A program made the position numbers and the translations under genes. Positions 2 through 47,753 of a stretch of DNA of 53,770 nt are shown piece by piece (positions within the stretch are counted from its first letter, which is position 1; every line of letters begins with the position of its first letter). Under the pieces are notes generated by a model, which worked only from the letters and a program-made list of their open reading frames with translations, had not been told where the DNA came from and did not search any database. The DNA is from a virus: IMG/VR virus record IMGVR_UViG_3300009684_001705, positions 1-53,770 of that record, one strand, 5' to 3'.

Positions 2-77
2 TGGTGCTACCTGTCGGATTCGAACTGACGGCCTATGAATTACTAGTTCATTGCTCTACCAACTGAGCTAAGGTAGC
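2..77 (-). tRNA. tRNA-Thr(AGU), CCA encoded
   Basis: Complete cloverleaf on the minus strand: 7-bp acceptor stem, D-arm, anticodon arm with loop CTAGTAA, T-loop TTCGAAT with one A-C mismatch in the T-stem, and encoded CCA. The anticodon read is AGT. An unmodified A34 in a threonine tRNA is unusual for bacteria and phages, so identity should be rechecked. It is the last tRNA visible before the window edge; the array probably continues. Confidence 0.85.
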
Positions 78-83
78 AAACTT

Positions 84-203
84 TTAAAATACGCTATAAA
101 CAAAATACCCAATGATACCAAGGAAAATAGTATACCCTGACAATAAAGCTAGGTATTCATATGGAGCTGTCTTATTAAAGATCTTAGTCGGTGTCATTTG
201 CAT
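84..203 (-). CDS. Small membrane protein, 39 aa, inside tRNA array
   Basis: A short reading frame between two tRNAs, below usual ORF cutoffs. It starts with MQMTPTKIF after an AAGGAAA ribosome binding site with good spacing. A polar N-terminus is followed by one hydrophobic segment (about residues 18-38, LALLSGYTIFLGIIGYFVYS) running to the C-terminus, so a single-pass membrane protein is predicted. The frame fills almost the whole space between the tRNAs, which supports it being real. I recognise no family. It could be a holin-like, spanin-like or host-membrane-acting peptide, but the sequence does not decide this. Confidence 0.6.
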   Translation of the reverse strand: MQMTPTKIFNKTAPYEYLALLSGYTIFLGIIGYFVYSVF

Positions 204-230
204 TTTGGTTTCCTTTGCTGTTATAATATT

Positions 231-307
231 GGTGCCCTCCCTCGGATTCGAACCGAGAACCTCTTGCTTCTAAGGCAAGCACCTCTAACCAGTTGGGCCA
301 GGAGGGC
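231..307 (-). tRNA. tRNA with Leu anticodon UAG but short variable loop
   Basis: Perfect acceptor stem GCCCTCC/GGAGGGC, anticodon stem CTTGC/GCAAG with loop CTTAGAA (anticodon TAG, reads CUA), T-arm CTCGG/CCGAG, and encoded CCA. The variable region is only about 5 bases. Leucine tRNAs of bacteria and phages normally have a long class II variable arm, so this class I body with a Leu anticodon is odd. Confidence 0.8.
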
Positions 308-312
308 AATAG

Positions 313-387
313 TGGAGCGGAGTACAGGATTCGAACCTGCGACGAACAGCTTGGAAGGCTGACACTCTACCACTGAGTTAACTCCGC
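313..387 (-). tRNA. tRNA-Gly(UCC), CCA encoded
   Basis: Cloverleaf with acceptor GCGGAGT/ACTCCGC, anticodon loop CTTCCAA, T-loop TTCGAAT and discriminator U, followed by CCA. One of two glycine tRNAs placed side by side. Confidence 0.92.
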
Positions 388-395
388 ATAAAAGT

Positions 396-470
396 TGGAG
401 CGGGCAATCGGACTCGAACCGACGACATCTTCGTTGGCAACGAAGTGCTCTACCACTGAGCTATACCCGC
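396..470 (-). tRNA. tRNA-Gly(GCC), CCA encoded
   Basis: Cloverleaf with acceptor GCGGGTA/TGCCCGC, anticodon loop TTGCCAA in a CTTCG/CGAAG stem, T-loop TTCGAGT, discriminator U and CCA. Second of the adjacent Gly pair; together they read all four GGN codons. Confidence 0.92.
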
Positions 471-475
471 ATAAA

Positions 476-552
476 TGGTGATTGAGGAAGGACTTGAACC
501 CTCAACATCCGGTTTCGAAGACCGGCGCTCTATCCAGTTGAGCTACTCAATC
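476..552 (-). tRNA. tRNA-Arg(UCG), CCA encoded
   Basis: Acceptor GATTGAG/CTCAATC, D-arm GCTC/GAGC, anticodon loop CTTCGAA in a CCGGT/ACCGG stem, T-loop TTCAAGT, then A and CCA. Reads CGN-type arginine codons. Confidence 0.92.
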
Positions 553-556
553 AATA

Positions 557-631
557 TGGAGGTGCTTCCCAGAGTCGAACTGGGTTCTCAAGGATTTGCA
601 GTCCCGCAACTTACCGTCCGCCCCAAGCACC
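557..631 (-). tRNA. tRNA-Cys(GCA), CCA encoded
   Basis: Acceptor GGTGCTT/AAGCACC and T-stem CCCAG/CTGGG are perfect. The anticodon loop CTGCAAA gives GCA, and discriminator U73 agrees with cysteine identity. D-arm and anticodon stem are weak, with wobble pairs and a C-U mismatch, but the identity elements support Cys. Confidence 0.85.
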
Positions 632-645
632 ATAATGTTATTTAT

Positions 646-721
646 TGGATCCGGAGGATGGACTCGAACCACCGACATACAGATTCAGAGTCTGTCGTTC
701 TACCAACTGAACTACTCCGGA
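646..721 (-). tRNA. tRNA-Gln(CUG), CCA encoded
   Basis: Acceptor TCCGGAG/CTCCGGA, D-arm GTTC/GAAC, anticodon loop CTCTGAA in an ACAGA/TCTGT stem, T-loop TTCGAGT, then CCA. The anticodon reads CAG only. Confidence 0.88.
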
Positions 722-727
722 ATAAAA

Positions 728-804
728 TGGCGACCTCGACCGGACTCGAACCGGCGACTTCTAGCGTGACAGGCTAGCACTCTAACCAACTGAGCTACGA
801 GGCC
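728..804 (-). tRNA. tRNA-Asp(GUC), CCA encoded
   Basis: Acceptor GGCCTCG/CGAGGTC, anticodon loop CTGTCAC in a CTAGC/GCTAG stem, T-arm GCCGG/CCGGT. Discriminator G73 agrees with Asp; CCA is encoded. Confidence 0.92.
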
Positions 805-977
805 AAACTCGCACTGGTTACTACAATCCAGCTTCACTCTATCGCGGTGAAAGATTAATTGAGATTAAGATCGAATCAGCTAAATGGACTCCAGTGGCCA
901 CACACTATACCCGAAGATGGCGGCTGACTCCACGATCGCCGGCGAAAGAGAGGTTCTCATCTCCCCCCTTTAAATAT
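805..977 (-). other. Gene-free stretch in tRNA array, possible structured RNA
   Basis: No reading frame and no complete cloverleaf could be fitted in these 173 bases. Short complementary segments are visible on the minus strand (CTGG/CCAG near the low end, the GTGGCCAC palindrome, GGGAG with CTCTC near the high end). It is more GC-rich than its surroundings and would be transcribed with the tRNAs. T4 encodes small stable RNAs in its own tRNA region, so a non-coding RNA is possible but unproven. Confidence 0.3.
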
Positions 978-1055
978 TGGAAACGGGAGTGGGATTCGAA
1001 CACCACGATTTTCAGTTTATGAGACTGACGGGAACGACCTCTTCCCTATCCCGCT
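978..1055 (-). tRNA. tRNA-Met(CAU), CCA encoded
   Basis: Acceptor AGCGGGA/TCCCGTT (7 pairs including a G-U), D-arm GGGA/TTCC, anticodon loop CTCATAA in a TCAGT/ACTGA stem, then CCA. The T-arm is irregular, with an 8-base loop or a closing mismatch. The paired first base argues against an initiator; elongator Met or lysidine-modified Ile2 cannot be separated by eye. Confidence 0.8.
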
Positions 1056-1059
1056 ATAA

Positions 1060-1133
1060 TGGTGCCCCAACGAGGAATCGAACCCCGGACGACTGATTAC
1101 AAAACAGTTGTTATACCATTTAACTATAAGGGC
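1060..1133 (-). tRNA. tRNA-Thr(UGU), CCA encoded
   Basis: Anticodon loop TTTGTAA, T-loop TTCGATT with stem CGGGG/CCTCG, D-arm GTTA/TAAC, and encoded CCA. One T-T mismatch in each of the acceptor and anticodon stems suggests some decay or relaxed structure. A second threonine tRNA besides the one at positions 2-77. Confidence 0.82.
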
Positions 1134-1211
1134 GAATAAGTGATAGTTCCGATATCTCCCATCGTCACTAACAACCGTTGAGTATCAGATGCCCCCGATA
1201 CTGTTTGCCTT
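1134..1211 (-). other. Gene-free spacer with hairpin
   Basis: No gene is seen. On the minus strand AGTATC and GATACT can pair around a 10-base loop, and a second small stem GATA/TATC lies nearer the low end. No complete tRNA could be fitted. Confidence 0.3.
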
Positions 1212-1287
1212 TGGTGGAGACATGCGGGATCGAACCGCAGACCTTCTGAATGCAAATCAGACGCTCTCCCAACTGAGCTATGTCCCC
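1212..1287 (-). tRNA. tRNA-Ala(UGC), CCA encoded
   Basis: Acceptor GGGGACA/TGTCTCC, anticodon loop TTTGCAT in a perfect TCTGA/TCAGA stem, T-arm TGCGG/CCGCA with loop TTCGATC, then CCA. Confidence 0.92.
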
Positions 1288-1292
1288 AATAA

Positions 1293-1368
1293 TGGTACCC
1301 GGTGACGGGATTGAACCGCCGACAATCTCCGTGTAAAGGAGGCGCTACTACCGCTGAGCTAACCGGGC
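1293..1368 (-). tRNA. tRNA-Val(UAC), CCA encoded
   Basis: Acceptor GCCCGGT/ACCGGGT, anticodon loop TTTACAC, T-arm GGCGG/CCGTC with loop TTCAATC, then CCA. The D-arm (GCT/AGC) and the first anticodon-stem pair are imperfect. Confidence 0.85.
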
Positions 1369-1376
1369 GAACTAAT

Positions 1377-1409
1377 CTAACATTAAAGATTCACAGTCCT
1401 TAATGTTAG
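1377..1409 (-). other. 13-bp hairpin with a His(GUG) anticodon-like loop
   Basis: On the minus strand a 13-base arm (1409-1397) pairs with 1389-1377 through 13 base pairs, one of them G-U. The enclosed 7-base loop is CTGTGAA, exactly the form of a tRNA anticodon loop with U33 and anticodon GUG (His). There is no room for a T-arm and acceptor stem before the Val tRNA, so it is not a normal tRNA. It may be a degenerate tRNA or a stand-alone anticodon-arm mimic. Confidence 0.55.
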
Positions 1410-1519
1410 CAACTCTATCCTCGTTGCCTCACTATCACTTGTTCCGCTGATATGGCAGTTGTGAACCTGCTTTCTCAGCCTCACTCAATGAGGGTCCATC
1501 CAACGAAGATGAGTTAATT
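1410..1519 (-). other. Gene-free spacer with T-arm-like hairpin
   Basis: No reading frame or full tRNA is seen. The minus strand has a GCAG/CTGC stem around GTTCACAA, which resembles a T-arm, and CCTCA/TGAGG and GCAAC/GTTGC hairpins. Either degenerate tRNA remnants or a structured non-coding RNA would fit. Confidence 0.3.
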
Positions 1520-1595
1520 TGGCTCCCCGACCAGGGCTCGAACCTGGGACATTCTGATTAACAGTCAGACGCTCTACCAACTGAGCTATCGGGAA
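1520..1595 (-). tRNA. tRNA-Asn(GUU), CCA encoded
   Basis: Acceptor TTCCCGA/TCGGGGA, D-arm GCTC/GAGC, anticodon loop CTGTTAA in TCTGA/TCAGA, T-arm CCAGG/CCTGG. G73 agrees with Asn; CCA is encoded. Its 5' end lies only 4 bases after the stop codon of the radical SAM gene, implying one transcript. Confidence 0.93.
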
Positions 1596-1599
1596 AAAC

Positions 1600-3120
1600 T
1601 CATAGTATACTTTTTTTATACCTATCAAGATATTCATTAAATGGTTTTTGTATATCATATCTAAATGGTAAACCTTTTTTACCACTTTCACGAATATCTT
1701 TTATCAATGTTTTAATATCATATCCACTATTATAAAGATATGGCAAAGAAAACGCACCACCAATTCGGTTAGCTCTTTCCATCGTAAAAGTTCTTGATAA
1801 TTCTAAAACTTCTTCATAAGAAGACCATGGACTAGTCCAATTTCTTGGATTATCGTTTGGTAAAACATAGTCTTTAAATGGATCGTTTCTAGATTTATTT
1901 ATCTCGTTTTTATCTTTATTTTTTACATATAAGACAAATGCAGTATATGCATAATGGTCCAGATAATATCTGCCTTCAATACTGTTTAACCACTCATATG
2001 TTTCGATCATATGTGATATTGGTTCTTTGGGCAAACCAGCGATAAACAATCCAGTAAAAATAGCTTCATCTTCAAAAACATCTCTCAATATTTCTAAAGA
2101 TTTTAGAAGCCTAACTTTATCAGTTACTTTACCGATAAATGGTCCTGATTCTTTATATAAACTTTCAATACCGAAATTAGCCCCAATCATACCAGATTCT
2201 TTTAAAAGAATCGCTTGTTCTTTGGTTCGAATAGTATCTAATCTAGCATATCCAGTCCACTTAAAATCAATACCAGTTTTATTCCTGACATCAATTAAGT
2301 ATCTGATTTTCTCGGGTGTATCATTAACGATATTATCAGTTAATGTATAAAAGTCGATATTGAAGTTTTTATGGTTTTCAATAATTTCTTTTTCAAAACT
2401 ATCATATGATCTTGTATATTCGTTTTTCTTTTTTCCTAATGCAGCGTAATCACAAAACGAACAACTGAATATGCATCCAGCAGCAACTTCTGTACATATG
2501 CTTTCGTTAGGAAAAATTTTATCATCTAAAATATATGTCGAAGCACAATCACTAAAATCAAATAAATCATCAGTGCGTAAAATAGGTTTACCGTTAATGA
2601 TACTAATTTCTAATGGTTCTTCATTACATATTTTTTCTATAATATCAGGATTATTACCAATAACAAAATATGTTACATACTTTGATAATAAATCAAAACC
2701 CATAATATCTTTTTTTCTTTTCATGGCAATAGAAGTTATTTCCCAGCCACCCAGAATATATTTGAAATTATTCGCTTCACATATTTTTCCTATGTTCAAC
2801 AGGAACAGTATGGTTTTTAATCCCCATACTCTAGTTATGTCTTCAAATTCTTTTGATGGAAGTTTAAACTTTTTATTTTTTCTATCGACACCAGCAAGAA
2901 AAGAAGTGCTAACACAAATAAGAATTTCTTCATTATTAGAAAAATCAGAAACAATTTTATTAAGTTCATCATAAGAAAAATTAGTGCAATGGTGTATCTG
3001 TTTTACTTCAAAGTTTTTTTTACGTAAAGCATATGCAATTCTTGAAATAGATGCGCTTTTAAGCGGCATAGATTCTAGAGTTTTAAAATCGCCAAATATC
3101 AATATCTTTTTAATCATCAT
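1600..3120 (-). CDS. Radical SAM enzyme embedded in tRNA array
   Basis: A 506-residue protein with the CxxxCxxC signature of radical SAM enzymes at C216, C220 and C223 (CIFSCSFC), which binds the 4Fe-4S cluster that cleaves S-adenosylmethionine. Residues 1-200 form a Rossmann-like region resembling the N-terminus of B12-binding radical SAM proteins, without an obvious DxHxxG motif. The gene lies between tRNA-Lys and tRNA-Asn with no promoter of its own seen, so it is probably co-transcribed with the tRNAs. That suggests, but does not prove, a role in RNA modification. An ATGATG doublet leaves the start uncertain by one codon; its AGGAT ribosome binding site lies in a hairpin arm. Substrate unknown. 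Confidence 0.8.
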   Translation of the reverse strand: MMIKKILIFGDFKTLESMPLKSASISRIAYALRKKNFEVKQIHHCTNFSYDELNKIVSDFSNNEEILICVSTSFLAGVDRKNKKFKLPSKEFEDITRVWGLKTILFLLNIGKICEANNFKYILGGWEITSIAMKRKKDIMGFDLLSKYVTYFVIGNNPDIIEKICNEEPLEISIINGKPILRTDDLFDFSDCASTYILDDKIFPNESICTEVAAGCIFSCSFCDYAALGKKKNEYTRSYDSFEKEIIENHKNFNIDFYTLTDNIVNDTPEKIRYLIDVRNKTGIDFKWTGYARLDTIRTKEQAILLKESGMIGANFGIESLYKESGPFIGKVTDKVRLLKSLEILRDVFEDEAIFTGLFIAGLPKEPISHMIETYEWLNSIEGRYYLDHYAYTAFVLYVKNKDKNEINKSRNDPFKDYVLPNDNPRNWTSPWSSYEEVLELSRTFTMERANRIGGAFSLPYLYNSGYDIKTLIKDIRESGKKGLPFRYDIQKPFNEYLDRYKKSIL

Positions 3121-3123
3121 ATT

Positions 3124-3149
3124 ATCCTGTTTTTATTATTTAGCAGGAT
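3124..3149 (-). promoter_or_regulatory. Hairpin covering the radical SAM gene RBS
   Basis: ATCCTG (3149-3144) and CAGGAT (3129-3124) on the minus strand are perfect complements separated by 14 bases. The AGGAT ribosome binding site of the radical SAM gene lies inside the 3' arm, so folding could limit its translation from the tRNA transcript. Confidence 0.45.
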
Positions 3150-3152
3150 TTT

Positions 3153-3228
3153 TGGTGAACCATGAAAGATTCGAACTTTCGACAAAGAGATTAAGAGTCT
3201 CCTGCTCTACCAGCTGAGCTAATGGTCC
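3153..3228 (-). tRNA. tRNA-Lys(CUU), CCA encoded
   Basis: Acceptor GGACCAT/ATGGTTC, D-arm GCTC/GAGC, anticodon loop CTCTTAA in a GGAGA/TCTCT stem, T-arm GAAAG/CTTTC, then CCA. Reads AAG; a second Lys tRNA (UUU) starts the same array. Confidence 0.9.
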
Positions 3229-3235
3229 GTAAAGA

Positions 3236-3308
3236 TTTGCCGTATAGGATTTGCACCTATCTCTCACCCGACTCCGCAGATGTGTCCTAACTTATAGACG
3301 AACGGCAA
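3236..3308 (-). tRNA. Aberrant tRNA-like gene, anticodon unclear, no CCA
   Basis: 73 bases fold as a tRNA: acceptor TTGCCGT/ACGGCAA perfect, D-arm GTCT/GGAC, T-stem ATAGG/CCTAT. The T-loop is TGCAAAT instead of TTCAAAT. The anticodon stem (CATCT/GGGTG, three wobble or weak pairs) encloses an 8-base loop GCGGAGTC without a U before any plausible anticodon. CCA is not encoded, unlike every other tRNA here. It may be a decayed tRNA, a tRNA with unusual decoding, or a tRNA-like RNA. Confidence 0.5.
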
Positions 3309-3312
3309 AAAT

Positions 3313-3387
3313 TGGTAGGGCGTAGGAGAGTCGAACTCCTCTAACAGGAATGAAAATCCTGGATCCTAACCGATAGACGAACGCCCC
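3313..3387 (-). tRNA. tRNA-Glu(UUC), CCA encoded
   Basis: Acceptor GGGGCGT/ACGCCCT, typical Glu-type TCGTCTA D-arm start, anticodon loop TTTTCAT in CAGGA/TCCTG, T-arm AGGAG/CTCCT, then CCA. Confidence 0.92.
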
Positions 3388-3514
3388 AAATAGCTCCGGT
3401 CACTATCGTAGTCCGGCAACGGATGGTTATTTAAGTGTCTCTCATTGATGCTGCAGCTTGAGAGAGAATCATTTACCATCACCCTAGTCTGTTTCAACAC
3501 TAAAGGGCACGTAT
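3388..3514 (-). ncRNA. Candidate structured RNA between tRNAs
   Basis: A 127-base gene-free stretch in the tRNA transcript. Positions 3422-3427 and 3475-3480 (GATGGT/ACCATC) form an outer stem, and 3438-3443 with 3460-3465 (TCTCTC/GAGAGA) an inner one. A second hairpin at 3396-3416 uses CCGG/CCGG plus ACTA/TAGT. No reading frame is visible. This could be a stable small RNA processed with the tRNAs; the evidence is secondary structure only. Confidence 0.4.
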
Positions 3515-3604
3515 TGGCGGAAGAGGTAGGATTCGAACCCACGGTACCTTGCGGTACGTCGCATTTCAAGTGCGGTGCCTTAAACCAGACTCGGCCACTC
3601 TTCC
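3515..3604 (-). tRNA. tRNA-Ser(UGA), class II, CCA encoded
   Basis: 90 bases with a long variable arm (GTACC...GGTACC), acceptor GGAAGAG/CTCTTCC, anticodon loop CTTGAAA in CCGCA/TGCGA, T-loop TTCGAAT, discriminator G and CCA. All are typical of serine tRNAs. Confidence 0.93.
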
Positions 3605-3611
3605 GTATATT

Positions 3612-3688
<77 letters not shown>

Positions 3689-3693
3689 ATTAT

Positions 3694-3768
3694 TGGTTGG
3701 CGCAGAAGGTAACGATCCTTCCACCCCTGTCTTATCAGGACAGTGCTCTTCCTCTGAGCTATGCGCCA
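3694..3768 (-). tRNA. tRNA-Ile(GAU), CCA encoded
   Basis: Acceptor TGGCGCA/TGCGCCA, D-arm GCTC/GAGC, anticodon loop CTGATAA in CTGTC/GACAG, T-stem GAAGG/CCTTC. The T-loop ATCGTTA departs from the TTCRAAT norm, but all stems are intact and CCA is encoded. Confidence 0.88.
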
Positions 3769-3774
3769 GTATAA

Positions 3775-3850
3775 TGGTGGACACTCTGGGACTCGAACCC
3801 AGGACCATCAGATTAAAAGTCCGATGCTCTACCAACTGAGCTAAGTGTCC
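3775..3850 (-). tRNA. tRNA-Lys(UUU), CCA encoded
   Basis: Acceptor GGACACT/AGTGTCC, D-arm GCTC/GAGC, anticodon loop CTTTTAA in TCGGA/TCTGA, T-arm CTGGG/CCCAG, then CCA. First tRNA after the array promoter. Confidence 0.93.
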
Positions 3851-40347: not shown

Positions 40348-41016
40348 TTATCGTTTTTTGCATTTATCATTATGATATCTTCCTATAGTTCCTGGGTTTC
40401 CTTCAAAATCACAATGCACACATTTGATTTTCATATTATTTAGTTCTTTAAAAACTGTTGTGCATTTGATTTTGTTTTTATGCTCTTCGGAAAGTTTTCT
40501 TCCTCTATTAGCTGCAGCGGCCATAGCAAGAGCTTTAGAATTATCTTTGCCTGTATTTTTACCTACCATAGATTTACGGCGCTTTTCACGAACTTCGAGA
40601 TTTGATGATTTAGTATCTCTTGTTGTTAATCCGGCAAGGTATTTTTCACGAACATCTGGTTTTTGCATTGCTTCTTTAGTTTTTTTAGATATTTTTTCTT
40701 TTATTGAAAATGAAGAATTTATGTCAGTTGTCCAATGACCCCATTTATGTTTACGTAAATTATAATATTTTTTACCCAATTCTTCTTCTTTTATAAAAGA
40801 AAACCATCGATGTTCTTCTTCAAACATTTGATTTCTGTCAGAAATATTAGTATTTAATATTTTTCTTTTGAAATCTTTTGGTCTTCTTCTATAAGCATCT
40901 CTCATTCTATTAGAAGAACAAAGGTATCTATCGTTTACATTTCCCCAATGACAACCAATGTAATACATTTTACGTTTTCTATCAAACCAAAGATATACGA
41001 ATCCATACTTTTCCAT
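40348..41016 (-). CDS. GIY-YIG homing endonuclease between genes 13 and 14
   Basis: 222 residues. GFVYLWFDRKRKMYYIGCHW is the GIY-YIG region with Arg/Glu residues after it. NUMOD3-like basic helices (GRKLSEEHKNKI) and a C-terminal zinc finger (CVHCDFEG...H...C) give DNA binding. Free-standing mobile endonuclease. Its ribosome binding site lies in one arm of a perfect 13-bp inverted repeat, suggesting translation is repressed unless transcription begins inside the hairpin. Confidence 0.9.
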   Translation of the reverse strand: MEKYGFVYLWFDRKRKMYYIGCHWGNVNDRYLCSSNRMRDAYRRRPKDFKRKILNTNISDRNQMFEEEHRWFSFIKEEELGKKYYNLRKHKWGHWTTDINSSFSIKEKISKKTKEAMQKPDVREKYLAGLTTRDTKSSNLEVREKRRKSMVGKNTGKDNSKALAMAAAANRGRKLSEEHKNKIKCTTVFKELNNMKIKCVHCDFEGNPGTIGRYHNDKCKKR

Positions 41017-41084: not shown

Positions 41085-41825
41085 TCATCCGATCATATCT
41101 GTAACCGGCATTGAATAATTCATGATCATTTCTTTTTCGAGTTCAGCTCTTTCTTGTGTAGCTTCGTCGTAAATTTTTTGACCATTGAATGTCAATCCAC
41201 CGGGCATTTTCATGCCTTCGAATTTCTTAAGGTTTTGTCCCCACTGCTGCTTAATAAGGCATTCGGCATAACGAGAAAGCCAACGATCGCCCCAACAACG
41301 TGGATAAAGATCAGGATCAATAATTTGATACGCTTCAATAATAACAAAGTCTCCTTCGTTAATAATGTTCCAGTCCATATCAATAAAACATTTATTTTGG
41401 TGGCGATTATATCTTAAAGGCTGTTTACCAACTAGCATCTGCTCAAGGAACTGTACATGCTGCATTGCCATGTAATATGGCACCATGGAAACAGATGTCA
41501 ATGTGTAAAGATCATTTAATGCGATCTGATAACGAATGTTAAAAAGGTTATTAGTATTAAGAGCCTGTCCAATTTCGAAAATATTAATGACACCGATAAT
41601 ATTTTCTGGCATAGTAATATACCTGTTAGCTTTATCAGTATTAGTTATCTGAGCTTTATAATAAATTTTATCAGCACCATCGAAATGGTAATCCCAAAAA
41701 TAACGAAGAGCTTCGTCAATGCGATCTTCTACCTGATCATCATCAACGTTGATCTCAATAACTGGCTTACCAAGTTTACGAAGGCAATACTCTTTAAATT
41801 GTGATCTAGATGTTGGTAGCGACAT
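41085..41825 (-). CDS. gp13: Neck protein gp13
   Basis: 246 residues (T4: 309). SLPTSRSQFKEYCLRKLGKP, EINVDDDQVEDRIDEALRYF and GDFVIIEAYQIIDPDLYPRC are hallmark gp13 segments of aquatic T4-like phages. It binds the portal after DNA packaging together with gp14. A late promoter lies just upstream. Confidence 0.96.
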   Translation of the reverse strand: MSLPTSRSQFKEYCLRKLGKPVIEINVDDDQVEDRIDEALRYFWDYHFDGADKIYYKAQITNTDKANRYITMPENIIGVINIFEIGQALNTNNLFNIRYQIALNDLYTLTSVSMVPYYMAMQHVQFLEQMLVGKQPLRYNRHQNKCFIDMDWNIINEGDFVIIEAYQIIDPDLYPRCWGDRWLSRYAECLIKQQWGQNLKKFEGMKMPGGLTFNGQKIYDEATQERAELEKEMIMNYSMPVTDMIG

Positions 41826-41854: not shown

Positions 41855-42823
41855 CTATTTGAGTGACCTCAAAAGTTCCTTATCTGTTAAAAGTATATCT
41901 TTTACCAACTGATTAGTTTCTTCGTATTGAATGAAGTCCACGCCCATCTCAAGCTTATTGGCGTCTTGGATAAACTCTGGATCTTTCTCTAATTTTACGG
42001 CTGCATCAGCAAACATCTTAACAGTTTCATCACTCATTTTCGGCGATCCAAATACCAGTCTGGCTAATTTTACATTTTTCTCATAATATTCAAGTATTTT
42101 GGTCTGAGTCGGTGTCTTTAAATATTCTCTGGCGTTTGGTACATTTGGTAGTATCGAATGCCTTTTTGGAGAACCTACCTGAAGGATAGGTCGTATCTGA
42201 TTTCCTTCTTTAAACCATTCTGGAAAACGTACTTTGGCGTTTAGCAAAGAACCAAATCTTGCATCAATCTCGTTAATTTGTAGGGCAGTAATTATGTTCT
42301 TATAACCAAAAATTAGTTTTGATTTTACACCAACAATATCTTTCAAAATATAGGTTTGTATATTATTTGGACCGGGATTCCCAATAACATAGTCGTTATC
42401 AACCATCATCTTATCGATGTTTGTCAAACCTCTAGAATTATTTGCCCAAAGAACAAAAACATTGTCATCACCATCTTCCGCCGAAAATAACCATTTGAAC
42501 TTATTAATGTCATACTTAACAGATGGATCTTTTAAAATACCGTCCAGTATAACATCACTGTTAACATTTAGAAAAGCAATATTAGTATTTGGATCAGCAA
42601 CATTATACAACCAGTTTGCCATGGTTAAACCACCGGCACCGGGCATGTTTATTACACTGACTGATGTATTTGATGGTAAATGTTTTGGTAGGTGTTTCGC
42701 CACAACACGAGCCTGAAGATCGGCGCCATTTCCAGCAGCACTATGGACAACTACATATATTGATGAAGCATAACAGGTATTGCTTATAAATAAGAATAAA
42801 GACATCAACAAAATTTTAAACAT
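41855..42823 (-). CDS. TTT-type periplasmic solute-binding protein (Bug/TctC family), copy 1
   Basis: 322 residues from MFKILLMSLFLF; this ATG has GGAG five bases upstream, better than the GTG two codons earlier. A signal peptide (about 18 residues ending CYA) targets the periplasm. INMPGAGGLTMANWLYNVA is the family's ligand-loop signature; the usual APKDG that follows is replaced by DPNTN. The C-terminal MSDETVKMFADAAVKLEKDP region is also typical. Family members capture carboxylates for tripartite tricarboxylate transporters. Rare in phages; a divergent copy is at 44553. Ligand unknown. Confidence 0.85.
   Translation of the reverse strand: MFKILLMSLFLFISNTCYASSIYVVVHSAAGNGADLQARVVAKHLPKHLPSNTSVSVINMPGAGGLTMANWLYNVADPNTNIAFLNVNSDVILDGILKDPSVKYDINKFKWLFSAEDGDDNVFVLWANNSRGLTNIDKMMVDNDYVIGNPGPNNIQTYILKDIVGVKSKLIFGYKNIITALQINEIDARFGSLLNAKVRFPEWFKEGNQIRPILQVGSPKRHSILPNVPNAREYLKTPTQTKILEYYEKNVKLARLVFGSPKMSDETVKMFADAAVKLEKDPEFIQDANKLEMGVDFIQYEETNQLVKDILLTDKELLRSLK
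42785..42792 (+). promoter_or_regulatory. T4-type late promoter motif on the plus strand
   Basis: Exact TATAAATA on the plus strand, about 55 bases before the QueC-like start, inside the signal-peptide codons of the divergent binding protein gene. It is the only such site found pointing right at a plus-strand gene. Confidence 0.5.
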
Positions 42824-42846
42824 ATTCACTCCAAGAGGTTTTTTTA

Positions 42847-43755
42847 ATGAAAGACATATTATTATTTTCCGGCGGTGCCGACTCAGCTTATATAGCTTAT
42901 AAAATTTTAACCGAAACTACTAATGAGTTAACCACACTAACACTAGTTAACTCACCAGAAGGTACTACCAGTTGGGCACCAAAACCTAGATTTTTAACTA
43001 GAATCGATGCTCTTATCGAAGAATTAAAGAAAATAAGAAATTTCACTTCTATCAAAAAGTCAGTGTTTGATTCTGAGATAACATTCGAAAACGATCATAC
43101 ATATTTATATGGCATAGAATGGGCATCACCTTTTATGAATGATGGAACTTATGATCGTTTCATCACAGGCAGAACTTGGGAACAGCAGAACCAGTCTCTG
43201 TTTAAGGGAAGCACACTCAAAGGAACACCCACATACTTTGCATCAATTAATCTTTGGAACAAACTCGTTACCAAAGGCGAGCTATATGATCCTTTAGTAA
43301 ACAATGATTACAATGTAAACTTCAATAGATATGATCTTTTCAACGAACTACCAAATAACATCAAAGCACATACAATTTCTTGTCATAACCCATCATTTAA
43401 TGCAGAAGGTACAGATGTAATCGAATGTGGTAAGTGCTTCAAGTGTCTATGGGATGAGAAAACTAAAGAGTTTATATCAAAAGGTTATACTCCATCACAA
43501 CTTAATGCATGGCGTCGTATTAAGGCGCTTGAGTATGGTGGTGGCAATAGCGTATCAGCACCTATGAGATACTGGTTGCCAATTGAAATGAGCAAAGGTG
43601 ATATTATAAATGTTACCAATAGTGCTGGTGATAAAGTTAAATTGAATACTAAAGAGAAAATTCAAAACCTACTTCAAACTGAAGACCACTACACATACAG
43701 AGACAGACCTAAGATAGGCATCTGGGACTTCAGCAACTTTCTAAATGGGGTTTAA
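42847..43755 (+). CDS. QueC-like PP-loop ATPase
   Basis: 302 residues. The PP-loop is LLFSGGADS at 5-13. A zinc site C...CGKCFKC (SCHNPSF, then ECGKCFKCLW, about 180-202) is spaced as in 7-cyano-7-deazaguanine synthase QueC. QueC turns carboxy-deazaguanine into preQ0, used for queuosine tRNA or deazaguanine DNA. No other queuosine genes are seen in the window, so the real substrate may differ. It is on the plus strand, divergent from the binding-protein gene with a 23-base gap, and its end overlaps the convergent amidoligase gene by 15 bases. Confidence 0.75.
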   Translation: MKDILLFSGGADSAYIAYKILTETTNELTTLTLVNSPEGTTSWAPKPRFLTRIDALIEELKKIRNFTSIKKSVFDSEITFENDHTYLYGIEWASPFMNDGTYDRFITGRTWEQQNQSLFKGSTLKGTPTYFASINLWNKLVTKGELYDPLVNNDYNVNFNRYDLFNELPNNIKAHTISCHNPSFNAEGTDVIECGKCFKCLWDEKTKEFISKGYTPSQLNAWRRIKALEYGGGNSVSAPMRYWLPIEMSKGDIINVTNSAGDKVKLNTKEKIQNLLQTEDHYTYRDRPKIGIWDFSNFLNGV

Positions 43756-44532
43756 AAAGTTTTTCTTATATACTGGTATATGAACTTTTCGAGTTTTTAT
43801 CCAGCTATCATATAGAGACTGATCAAAATTTAATTTTGGGAATGAACCCGAATAGTCTAATTCATTCCCAAAAAGCGCATGATCAACGAAAGATTTGCAG
43901 AAATATAGAATGCTTCTAATCTCTTTTTTGCTAGTAGTTGCTCTAAAAAAACGAAATTCAAGAGTATCATTTTTCACCAGTGATAATAAGTTGATGAAAT
44001 AACGGTCAGAAATTTTGTTTGGATTACAAATACAATTTGCATAAAAATCTGTTGTATTTTGTGTTTTCATAATTTCTTTAAATTTTTTAGGGTGGTACTT
44101 TCTTCCGCTATCAACATTTAGATATTTCTCAGTTCCAATCCCATATATTTCGTCTATAATTCGATCCTGATGATCACGAGCAGACTGAATTATTTTCTTT
44201 AATAACATCAAATCATTTTTCAATTTTGGTATGTAAACATGAACATGTGTATTAGAAACACAAGACGCCGTTGGTTGGTAACCGTTTTTATTAAAAAAAT
44301 TTAATAATTTTTCAAAAATATTAATTTGTTTTTCTATATCATAAGTAGGGATTGTGTTTATTTCACCACCTACTGGTGGGTTTATGCCGAATGGATCAAC
44401 AGCAATACCCCAATAAGGATAAGTTTGATTGACGATATCACATTCATTATAGTTCCAATAACCACAGTCGGCGGGGAGAGTTAGGCTCCTCCTTACATCA
44501 CCAAATTCTAATTCTAGCCCCCAAGAATACAT
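43741..44532 (-). CDS. Amidoligase family protein (second copy)
   Basis: 263 residues. GLELEFGD (5-12), NPPVGGEINTIPT, SNTHVHVYIP and LEFRFFRATTSK mirror the first amidoligase at 13399 (NPPVGGEINTKPT and so on), so the two are paralogues. Predicted ATP-dependent carboxylate-amine ligase with a glutamine-synthetase-like fold. This copy has no adjacent amidotransferase but is surrounded by three PP-loop ATPases. Whether the two copies share a pathway is unknown. Confidence 0.78.
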   Translation of the reverse strand: MYSWGLELEFGDVRRSLTLPADCGYWNYNECDIVNQTYPYWGIAVDPFGINPPVGGEINTIPTYDIEKQINIFEKLLNFFNKNGYQPTASCVSNTHVHVYIPKLKNDLMLLKKIIQSARDHQDRIIDEIYGIGTEKYLNVDSGRKYHPKKFKEIMKTQNTTDFYANCICNPNKISDRYFINLLSLVKNDTLEFRFFRATTSKKEIRSILYFCKSFVDHALFGNELDYSGSFPKLNFDQSLYDSWIKTRKVHIPVYKKNFLNPI

Positions 44533-44552
44533 TATTTTACCACGGAGTTGAT

Positions 44553-45491
44553 ATGAAAAAACTACTTATGATTCTATGTATTATATTTTGTCTACCAGCA
44601 AATGCACAAGAATTAAACATTATTCTTTCTTCAGAGGGAGACGGTCATTCTGCAAATGCTCGCATATTTGGTAAATATTTGGCTAAAAATATTTCACCAG
44701 AAACTAATGTGCTATTTAAAATAGTTCCAGGTGCAGCAGGCGTCAATGCTGCCAATTATCTCTATAATATTGCACCAAAAGATGGAAATACTATCGGAAT
44801 ATTATTTAAAAATATTCCGATAATTGGAGCTATCGGAGGTTCAAATATCAATTTCGACGCTAGGAATTTTATTTGGCTAGGGTCAGTTGCTGACGGTCGA
44901 AAAGATGCAGTGGTACTCGTTTCAAACAAACCTTATACAGGCGACGAGTTGGTGGTTGGTGCTGAAAGTGTCGTTTCGGCAGACCCAATTAATTTTATTG
45001 AGAAATATTCTGGTTTGAAAATTAAAAAGATAACAGGATATCAAAGCTCTAATTCGGTTAGACTTGCATATGAGAGAAAAGAAATAGATGCTTTTGTATC
45101 TAGTTTACAAGGCATCAAAACTTTTAGAAAAGAATGGCTCACTAGCGAATTATTTATATTGCAATTAGGTAATGGGAAAATTAAACATTTGGAATTGCCT
45201 AATACACCAACGATAAACGAGCTAATTAAAGATGAAGAGAGTTTGAAGCTATTAACAGTATTTGAATCTCAATTTGCTTTATTAAGACCATTTGTTGCTC
45301 CTCCGGGTGTTTCCGAAAATAAAAAGAAAGAGCTAATATTAGCATTCGAAAAAGCAGTAAATGATAAAAATTATATTAAAGAGGTTGCTAGGATTAATTT
45401 AGATATTGATCCTATCTATCACGATGAAGCGCAAAAAATAGTTGATTTTACTTATTCAGCTTCGCGAAAAATTCTTGATGAAATTAAGTAA
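44553..45491 (+). CDS. TTT-type periplasmic solute-binding protein (Bug/TctC family), copy 2
   Basis: 312 residues. Signal peptide MKKLLMILCIIFCLPANA with a clean ANA-QE cleavage site. IVPGAAGVNAANYLYNIAPKDG is interrupted by nothing and carries both family motifs (PGA-G and APKDG). RPFVAPPGVSENKKKELILA matches the C-terminal family region. GGAG five bases before ATG. It lies on the plus strand, 20 bases from the divergent amidoligase gene, and overlaps the convergent PP-loop gene by eight bases. More canonical than copy 1; ligand unknown. Confidence 0.86.
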   Translation: MKKLLMILCIIFCLPANAQELNIILSSEGDGHSANARIFGKYLAKNISPETNVLFKIVPGAAGVNAANYLYNIAPKDGNTIGILFKNIPIIGAIGGSNINFDARNFIWLGSVADGRKDAVVLVSNKPYTGDELVVGAESVVSADPINFIEKYSGLKIKKITGYQSSNSVRLAYERKEIDAFVSSLQGIKTFRKEWLTSELFILQLGNGKIKHLELPNTPTINELIKDEESLKLLTVFESQFALLRPFVAPPGVSENKKKELILAFEKAVNDKNYIKEVARINLDIDPIYHDEAQKIVDFTYSASRKILDEIK

Positions 45492-46530
45492 TATAATATC
45501 TCTCAGATGGCACTGAGTATTTTTTCTTTATATCGATTTCTTGTTTAACTTGCCCGATCATATTTTTATAAAGACGAAATATATCAGAGTTTTTATTATC
45601 AATCAAATACGTATCTCGACAACTTAAAAATTGACTACCTGATTTACCTGCCACAAATTTAAGCGAGTTTTTCAAATTATAAATTAATGGCTTTATCGAT
45701 TCAATATAATTTGATTTAAATTTATGTTTAAATTCTTCGCCATCAACAATACAATTTTGAATATAGTAATTTTTAATAATGTGTAACTGTTTACGTATTA
45801 ATTTTTCTGCATCTGGATCTGTATAAAAATTAATTCTTGAAGCATTATTAAAATTGTATTTACAATAATTAGCGATAGAAGCATCGTCGAAATACGTATA
45901 AAATGCATCATTATTTTCTTCATAATTAAGATATGGTTTTTCAGCAGCTAATAATATAGCCGAGTTTTTTTTCAAATTTAAAAATTTATCGATATCATAC
46001 CAAAACAAATACGTTACGCTAGGATAAACACCGATAAATTTGTAATATTCAGCACCATACTGTTGATATAATGAAAAATTATTTAAATTTTTAAAATAAT
46101 CTGTATAATCTATAATTGTTTTTTTCGTATTAGGGAAATTCATAAAGTTCAAAGTGGGTATCACATTTTCATAAATTTCTCTATTATGATTAATATCTCC
46201 AATATTAGTTTTATCTTGAGAAAAAGAACCCACTGATACGATCTCATCTATATGAATATTATTGTAATAAAAAGACTCTAACATATTTGTTGAATCAATA
46301 CCACCAGAATAACATAAAACTACATAATCATATTTGTCACGAATCTGTTGAGCTCGTTGTTTATAAAGCTCCTGTAAAGATTCAGTGGGTTCTTTTTTCC
46401 AATCAACTTTTGAAAATTCAGCTGCTCGATAATTAAATTTTATTTCATTATTAGTTGACAAATTATATTTGATAGCATCGTATCTGTTATCAAAAGTTAA
46501 ATTTGGATTTATAACATCATAATAATGCAT
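45484..46530 (-). CDS. PP-loop ATPase, asparagine-synthetase-like, copy A
   Basis: 348 residues. YDYVVLCYSGGIDSTNMLES contains the PP-loop SGGIDS near 78. The rest is Tyr/Asn-rich with unclear domains. PP-loop enzymes adenylate a carbonyl or carboxyl group before amidation or thiolation. It begins at the ATG overlapping the end of the next PP-loop gene, so the pair is translated together. Substrate unknown. Confidence 0.75.
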   Translation of the reverse strand: MHYYDVINPNLTFDNRYDAIKYNLSTNNEIKFNYRAAEFSKVDWKKEPTESLQELYKQRAQQIRDKYDYVVLCYSGGIDSTNMLESFYYNNIHIDEIVSVGSFSQDKTNIGDINHNREIYENVIPTLNFMNFPNTKKTIIDYTDYFKNLNNFSLYQQYGAEYYKFIGVYPSVTYLFWYDIDKFLNLKKNSAILLAAEKPYLNYEENNDAFYTYFDDASIANYCKYNFNNASRINFYTDPDAEKLIRKQLHIIKNYYIQNCIVDGEEFKHKFKSNYIESIKPLIYNLKNSLKFVAGKSGSQFLSCRDTYLIDNKNSDIFRLYKNMIGQVKQEIDIKKKYSVPSERYYIT

Positions 46531-47323
46531 CAAAATACTTCTTTAAAAAAACATCAGGTTCCATAACCCACTTATAATTAGGAGTTTGTTTTCTACCAGT
46601 AATTAAATAACGTGCATAACTTTTGGTAATTTTTGTAAAATTAGCATATATTTTTTGTCTGTAAGGTATTTTATAAAGGTTACATTTAAATGTTTGAGAA
46701 TCTAAATTATTCATCTGACTAACCATAGAATATACGATTTCTGGCGTGTACATAAAAAAATCGTATGTGTAATTATCGATAATAACATCATTATAAAAAT
46801 CCCACTCGTTAACTTCTACAGCAACTTTATCGTTTATATCACCGATCATATGTTCAGCTTTGACGTATATACCACCGTTATTTTTAGCATATTCTGCCAT
46901 AATTAATGCTGGTACAGCACCTATACCAAAACTATTGAGTTTATCTTTAATGTCTAATTTAGATCTCATTAAAACGTTTTGTTCATCAATATTTAATATA
47001 GTCGGAATTATATTGTACTCTTTACAAATGTCAAAAGCTATTGATGATTCTTTTTCGTAACATTTACTATAAACTATTACAGGAGTAAATGGGACATCAT
47101 AAAACTTAAATTTACGAAAAACATATTCTGAATCAATACCACCACTAAGACCAATATAAATTTTATTGTTTATTTTATAAAGTTTTTCGATAACTTCTTT
47201 TGACGCCTGTTCAAAATCAAGTTTACGATAATTTGACACATTTATTGTAATATCGAAATTAGAATTATGGTCGTTCAATCTATTTGCAAGATTATGAGAA
47301 ATCCAGTTATTCTCTGATGGCAT
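46517..47323 (-). CDS. PP-loop ATPase, asparagine-synthetase-like, copy B
   Basis: 268 residues from MPSENNWISHNLANRL. KIYIGLSGGIDSEYVFRKFK carries the PP-loop near residue 64, and HMIGDINDKVAVEVNEWDFY follows. It resembles the C-terminal synthetase half of AsnB-type enzymes without a glutaminase domain. It overlaps the fatty-acid-hydroxylase-like gene and the second PP-loop gene, forming a three-gene unit. Confidence 0.75.
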   Translation of the reverse strand: MPSENNWISHNLANRLNDHNSNFDITINVSNYRKLDFEQASKEVIEKLYKINNKIYIGLSGGIDSEYVFRKFKFYDVPFTPVIVYSKCYEKESSIAFDICKEYNIIPTILNIDEQNVLMRSKLDIKDKLNSFGIGAVPALIMAEYAKNNGGIYVKAEHMIGDINDKVAVEVNEWDFYNDVIIDNYTYDFFMYTPEIVYSMVSQMNNLDSQTFKCNLYKIPYRQKIYANFTKITKSYARYLITGRKQTPNYKWVMEPDVFLKKYFDALL

Positions 47324-47753
47324 GAGATTTCCAAGTACCAAATATCATATCCCAGATAGGAAAGAACACACCATAGTTATAATTTTTGTTTATATGATGT
47401 ACAAGATGCCAACTACCGCTTGTTAGAAAAGGATATATATCAAATTTAGGATTATGTTCGACTGATTCTTGAATGAATGCTGCCCATATATAGTAGACGA
47501 CAAAGAGCCACCATCCAAAAAACAGGCTTAATACGATTGTAGGGATTACTTCTGTGTACCACTGATCGAGTGTACTTTTAGGCGAGTCGAAGTACAAGAA
47601 CAGGTTTTTCCAATTCAATCCTTGAATAGTATTATGAGATACCTGCTTGTGATGATCAGCATGAATATTTTTAAAATAAGGAAGTATATGTACTAGGCGA
47701 TGACACCAGTACACGACCAGAGTCCATAACAAAAACACAAAAACATAATACAT
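47307..47753 (-). CDS. Fatty acid hydroxylase / sterol desaturase family membrane protein
   Basis: 148 residues. Three histidine clusters fit the di-iron hydroxylase superfamily: HRLVH (18-22), HADHH (31-35) and HLVHH (116-120), plus an isolated H100. Two to three hydrophobic segments (2-16, 70-95) anchor it in the membrane. The family hydroxylates or desaturates lipids. It is shorter than most members, yet keeps all His boxes. Its place beside PP-loop enzymes and fibre genes suggests lipid or surface modification of the host, which is inference. Confidence 0.8.
   Translation of the reverse strand: MYYVFVFLLWTLVVYWCHRLVHILPYFKNIHADHHKQVSHNTIQGLNWKNLFLYFDSPKSTLDQWYTEVIPTIVLSLFFGWWLFVVYYIWAAFIQESVEHNPKFDIYPFLTSGSWHLVHHINKNYNYGVFFPIWDMIFGTWKSHAIRE

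Follow-up and report, generated by a model that had tools for sequence, protein, structure and literature searches.

Two genes for TctC-family solute-binding-like proteins, here called A and B, lie in a 53.8-kb fragment of a T4-like phage (IMG/VR viral record IMGVR_UViG_3300009684_001705; the window, analysed over its full 53,770 nt), and our analysis of this stretch and its relatives revealed that such genes recur in phages next to genes for PP-loop ATP pyrophosphatases. We propose, tentatively and at rather less than even confidence, that A and B are the periplasmic capture half of a recurrent phage module, the other half of which is the cytosolic PP-loop enzyme, and that the two halves form a coupled mechanism. 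The window encodes a terminase whose nearest relatives are those of Sinorhizobium phages phiN3 and phiM12 (56% identity), together with a T4-type tail sheath and a gp13-like neck protein.

A sequence-only reading of the window had reported two exported binding proteins in this region, and both genes proved to be intact open reading frames. A (41855..42829, minus strand; 324 aa, with the ATG at 42823, which has GGAG upstream, as its likelier start) and B (44553..45491, plus strand; 312 aa) are homologous (BLASTP 1e-31, 29% identity). They are not neighbours: genes for a QueC-like PP-loop protein and for an amidoligase separate them, and the strands alternate. Each protein begins with a signal peptide, consisting of a charged N-terminus, a hydrophobic core and an A-x-A-like end (MKKLLMILCIIFCLPANAQ; MFKILLMSLFLFISNTCYAS), as judged by inspection and a crude rule rather than by SignalP. 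The export signal is also present in the aligned phage relatives of A and B, and no lipobox was seen on inspection of the A- and B-type proteins.

The family membership of A and B is remote. As single sequences neither passes the cut-off of the Pfam TctC family (PF03401), A having no match and B an E-value of 0.062, and searches of the PDB with phmmer were borderline. A PF03401 search of the window likewise gave no match, although a family profile built from 55 phage and bacterial sequences picks up both proteins. That profile matched the solved structures of TBP, TphC, Bug27, BugE and BugD with E-values of 2e-15 to 5e-10 (TBP 2.4e-15; Bug27, BugD and BugE all <1e-9). An AlphaFold2 model of B was of high quality (predicted local distance difference test score, pLDDT, 93.5), and its 17 best fold matches in the PDB were all TctC/Bug proteins, with template modelling scores of 0.61–0.70, corresponding to a two-domain type II binding protein. 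Several relatives exceed the Pfam cut-off directly (L001:2920, 27.9 bits; TctC2, a further type of TctC protein, in L001 and L027, 67 and 61 bits). Because of the profile matches, the fold matches of the B model and these relatives, the assignment of A and B to the TctC/Bug family is correct. They resemble the TctC/Bug proteins of tripartite tricarboxylate transporters (TTT; PF03401, including Bug27, BugD, TBP/TphC, AdpC and MatC) in fold, export, the PGAxG region and overall length. They differ in forming a clade of their own, in having a lost (B) or degenerate (A) GGxxD motif, in their PP-loop neighbours and in the lack of TctA from the phage records.

The GGxxD motif belongs to the P-F-x-A-G-G-x-x-D loop of TctC proteins, which uses two waters to hold the carboxylate of the ligand (PMC5812351). 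This pincer is present in 120/138 of the aligned bacterial relatives, in 1/5 A-type proteins (A of the window itself, as GNGAD) and in 0/24 B-type proteins, the equivalent sequences being HSAAGNGAD in A and SSEGDGHSA in B. The Bug/TctC signature claimed in the sequence-only reading thus holds at the level of the family, but as a carboxylate-binding signature it is degenerate in A and lost in B, and the loss of ligand-binding residues, named there as a reason for abandoning its interpretation, has occurred at the canonical pincer in B-type proteins and in part in A. The second loop region is retained (GY, then A and E177), and the B-type proteins have fixed residues of their own, with D114 and R116 in 24/24 sequences and R211, H212 and E238 in 96%. 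D114 is also invariant among A-type proteins, in contrast to R116, and the residues W108, G162, Y163, E177 and Q204 are conserved in the subfamily. Given the retained loop and these fixed residues, the ligand site looks, from the alignment, remodelled and not merely decayed. A and B also differ at the APKDG motif (VADPNTN in A, IAPKDGN in B), as reported earlier, and the associated suggestion that they bind different ligands is plausible because the two belong to distinct paralogous clades and their pocket residues differ.

The PP-loop ATP-pyrophosphatase genes that adjoin the TctC genes had not been noted in the sequence-only reading. Counting one locus per contig, the distance from a phage TctC gene to a PP-loop gene is <=150 bp in 33/47 cases and <=6 kb in 45/47. 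The two TctC genes without a PP-loop neighbour both lie at contig ends, and the opposite end of the L028 contig carries a truncated gene of the PPq kind. Three kinds of PP-loop gene, PPq, PPy and PPn, are paired with TctC: A or B occurs with PPq, the TctC2 lineage with PPy or PPn, and the TctC of L173 with PPy. All three are present in the window, where PPq (42847..43755, plus strand) is divergent from A across a 17-bp gap, PPy (45484..46533, minus strand; motif YSGGIDS) is convergent with B with an 8-bp overlap, and PPn (46517..47341, minus strand; LSGGIDS) is the third. The order of the pair varies between phages, from overlapping genes on the same strand in P22-like phages to the divergent starts 17 bp apart in the window and convergent ends in L008 and L009.

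The association was also recovered from the PP-loop side. Scans seeded with PPq, for which two narrower alignments were used instead of the full PPq alignment, found TctC neighbours in new contigs (L133, L135, L136, L140, L150, L159 and L160), and 12/13 PP-loop genes in six phage records (429 kb) lay inside a TctC cluster. None of 80 bacterial TctC loci had a PP-loop neighbour, the three matches of a motif search all being judged false, and a search for PPq across a single alphaproteobacterial order (199 genomes) gave only one partial match. Distances between PPq proteins correlated with those between TctC proteins (Mantel r 0.81, 0/2000 permutations), as expected for co-inheritance. In L140 (2707-8400) five PPq genes, with a 2-oxoglutarate/Fe(II)-dependent (2OG-Fe(II)) oxygenase gene among them, surround a single TctC gene, and in L173 (2751-6394) a canonical TctC gene (81 bits) overlaps a PPy gene by 4 bp and is followed by a carbamoyltransferase gene (PF02543/PF16861). 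A 157-kb relative carries a lone PP-loop gene with the motif LLSGGVDS far from its TctC cluster (G001:68321-69130, locus L180). In L142, L144, L145 and L146, which apparently represent another phage type, PPq has a conserved gene of ~200 aa upstream and other cargo genes after it.

PPq is related to the QueC-like PP-loop ATP pyrophosphatases (PF06508 superfamily, including QueC, QatC, Cap9, LarE and WbpG). The SGGxDS motif is invariant in the PPq alignment, with SGGADS as the form in the window, and the members from T4-like phages have four invariant cysteines ending in CxxCxxC (C179-x14-C194-x2-C197-x2-C200); the cluster is incomplete in the members from P22-like phages. The first spacing of 14 residues, rather than 8, does not match the C(x)8CxxCxxC zinc motif of QueC. 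PHROGs labels PPq as QueC-like (phrog_1550; 13/14 members). The canonical catalytic motifs of QueC are YxQxHxxE, VPxRN and YPDC (PMC13329287), and none of the three was seen on inspection of the window PPq sequence. We therefore do not call PPq a QueC despite the label, and a role as canonical QueC in 7-deazaguanine DNA modification was rejected. The PADLOC profile of QatC matched weakly, and across the cysteine region only (0.023 for the window PPq, 0.0025 for that of L133). A model of PPq reached a pLDDT of 77.7, and its best fold matches, with low scores, were LarE and argininosuccinate synthase. PPq resembles the known enzymes in SGGxDS, in the cysteine cluster of the T4-like members and in its fold matches, and differs from them in its partner, which is TctC and not queD/queE or defence genes.

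Relatives of the TctC genes were found at 24 viral loci. In a tree made by a quick method, with a single support value and an unfixed root, one branch separated 29 phage sequences from 46 bacterial sequences (Shimodaira–Hasegawa-like approximate likelihood ratio test, SH-aLRT, 99). The phage clade comprises an A-type group (A of the window and four others) and a B-type group, and spans T4-like phages and a second, P22-like type whose terminase, portal and stabilisation proteins are unlike those of T4. On this placement A and B are old paralogues within a phage clade that occurs in two unrelated phage types. Two or three TctC genes occur together on several of the phage contigs, and paired copies are therefore common in the group. 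A genome scan yielded hundreds of bacterial relatives; those retained were 27–33% identical and nearly all from Alphaproteobacteria. Phylogenetic placement against bacterial Bug proteins, suggested earlier as a route to the host, thus gave as sister group an alphaproteobacterial and largely orphan expansion of TctC, with at least 150 TctC-profile matches against 9 TctA matches in one bacterial genome that carries relatives. Orphan expansions of this kind have been described for Rhodoplanes (PMC5994714). Ratios of nonsynonymous to synonymous substitution rates among near relatives were 0.04–0.15 for TctC and 0.09–0.20 for PPq pairs, and the phage TctC genes are under purifying selection.

The sequence-only reading held that the phage may redirect carbon uptake through host TTT permeases, and this interpretation was supported in part. 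The phages do encode exported TctC-family proteins. TctA was absent from 24/24 phage records and TctB from the 16/16 tested, many of these records being fragments, and a complete tripartite system is not encoded. Any transport would therefore need host permeases, and the alphaproteobacterial genomes that carry relatives contain 5–19 TctA matches each, which is consistent with the use of host TTT permeases. The redirection of carbon uptake found no direct support. Cyanophage PstS is a phage-encoded binding protein, and it shares with A and B the state of a phage-borne periplasmic protein without a permease; the present proteins differ in belonging to the TctC family, in their linked enzyme and in the number of their paralogues, which is two or three in many phages.

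The cassette of T4-like phages is flanked by the neck gene on one side and by tail-fibre genes on the other, and phiN3 has tail-fibre genes at the corresponding place. One border in the window is the gene for the neck protein (head–tail adaptor, T4 gp13-like; 41085..41825, minus strand; phrog_211, 2e-43). A homing-endonuclease-like gene (phrog_314; 40348-41016) adjoins it, and a similar-looking open reading frame occurs in the neck-gene region of L002 (4548-5207). In P22-like phages the TctC/PP-loop pair is directly upstream of the tail-fibre/host-specificity gene. Between PPq and B the window encodes an amidoligase (PF12224; 43741..44532, minus strand; Pfam 5.4e-6, above the cut-off; phrog_2443), which was not seen as a recurrent neighbour; a fatty acid hydroxylase (PF04116; 47307..47753, minus strand) does recur beside the cassette. 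Genes for CsgG/CsgF, the curli outer-membrane pore, lie beside TctC in six relatives (L027, L013, L011, L014, L135 and L136), a further pointer to the cell envelope. In the T4-like L027 (140-5424) and L013 (117-5406) the scores were 177 bits for CsgG and 60 bits for CsgF, and the same stretches encode a FecR protein, a CHASE2-guanylate/adenylate cyclase and an exported protein of 225 aa with Q-x-G-x-x-N repeats, curlin-like by eye only and without a PDB match. CsgF and CsgG without CsgA/B have been reported in pelagimyophages (PMC7029224). The left end of the window (2-3850) carries a cluster of 19 tRNA genes.

A T4-type late-promoter-like box, TATAAATA (42785..42792, plus strand), is found 55 bp upstream of PPq, and the plus strand of the window has no other; its sequence is the T4 late-promoter consensus. 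Late expression is only suggested by this box, because the motif is not enriched across the window (11 found, 7.1 expected).

Taken as a coupled mechanism, the module would work as follows. The phage would export the binding protein during infection, probably late, and the protein would capture a small ligand in a pocket whose make-up has departed from the classic carboxylate pincer. Delivery of the ligand would rely on a host permease, for example TctAB, and the PP-loop enzyme might then activate the imported compound, or a derivative, with ATP by adenylation, and amidate or conjugate it to something required by the phage, for instance a modified metabolite, a nucleotide or a surface group. 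That this amounts to a dedicated pathway, in which phages have assembled a binding protein re-tuned to a new, non-classical ligand and a new PP-loop ligase family, common to T4-like and P22-like phages, that captures and activates an environmental or host-envelope compound, we regard as more doubtful still. Several points weigh against coupling. PPq occurs without TctC in L142, L144, L145, L146, L153 and L158 (the last near a contig end), and the link is therefore not obligatory in that direction. The tail-fibre/host-recognition region is rich in cargo genes, and linkage can arise there without shared function. The moderate PPq model does not identify the chemistry, the fit of a phage binding protein to a host permease is presumed, and with the canonical pincer gone from B-type proteins, ligand binding itself could have been lost.

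Two rival explanations are serious, and each seems to us unlikely, though not much less likely than a dedicated pathway. The somewhat stronger one is superinfection exclusion or envelope remodelling, in which the exported TctC-like protein acts by obstructing a receptor or an inner-membrane entry point, PP-loop enzymes similar to WbpG-type sugar amidotransferases alter surface sugars, and the cassette shields the infected cell from rival phages. The position of the cassette beside tail-fibre and host-specificity genes, the tail-fibre genes of phiN3 at the same place, the fatty acid hydroxylase and CsgG/CsgF neighbours and the loss of the canonical ligand motif all suit this explanation, as does the host-recognition island of pelagimyophages, which has been tied to coinfection avoidance (PMC7029224). 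It fits less well with a binding-protein fold that is well kept along with the conserved subfamily residues. Known receptor-blocking proteins are usually lipoproteins or membrane proteins; the A- and B-type proteins have no lipobox on inspection. Slightly less probable is hitch-hiking, whereby the TctC and the PP-loop genes have no link beyond being cargo of a shared hypervariable island that moves as a block with the tail fibres. The many other cargo genes of the island (2OG-Fe(II) oxygenases, fatty acid hydroxylase, amidoligase) and the loci with PPq and no TctC speak for it, but every TctC gene with enough flanking sequence has a PP-loop neighbour, and the pairing recurs over unrelated phages, separate TctC lineages and changed gene orders.

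Plain auxiliary carbon uptake, the view of the sequence-only reading, in which the binding proteins sustain the infected cell by feeding it di- or tricarboxylates by way of host TctAB, is improbable. The family, the export signals and the host-type permeases of alphaproteobacterial genomes agree with it, but the pincer that most bacterial relatives retain is missing from all B-type and all but one of the A-type proteins, and the PP-loop partner is left unexplained. The idea that A and B are part of the particle, as a virion adhesin or decoy, was rejected as highly improbable: the genes do sit among tail genes, but Sec-type signal peptides occur across the family and the proteins have the globular, soluble fold of a single-domain-family binding protein with no tail or trimerisation domain.

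Neither TctC proteins nor QueC-like proteins are new as kinds, and Bug-like proteins have already been annotated automatically in uncultured phages. The BFVD entries for uncultured Caudovirales phages annotated as 'PBP2_Bug_TTT' or 'Bordetella uptake protein' have a TctC-like fold in common with A and B; they were matched by fold, with only 14–17% identity, and the literature searched yielded no description of them. Translated searches (tblastn) of INPHARED with A, B, the podovirus-type TctC, TctC2 and both PPq types gave no match, PHROGs has no family for phage TctC, and the sole find in the literature on phage TctC/Bug was a tctA domain match in SUP05 viral contigs (PMC4164917). No description of the phage TctC clade or of its pairing with PP-loop genes was thus found in the papers searched, PHROGs or INPHARED, and absence there does not prove that they are undescribed.

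What had looked like a pair of odd transport genes in a single phage is a recurrent two-gene module in unrelated phages of uncultured hosts. If the coupling that we favour is real, phages would use this system to fetch a specific compound from the host periplasm and to process it in the cytoplasm, and the substrate of either half could be sought experimentally through the other.

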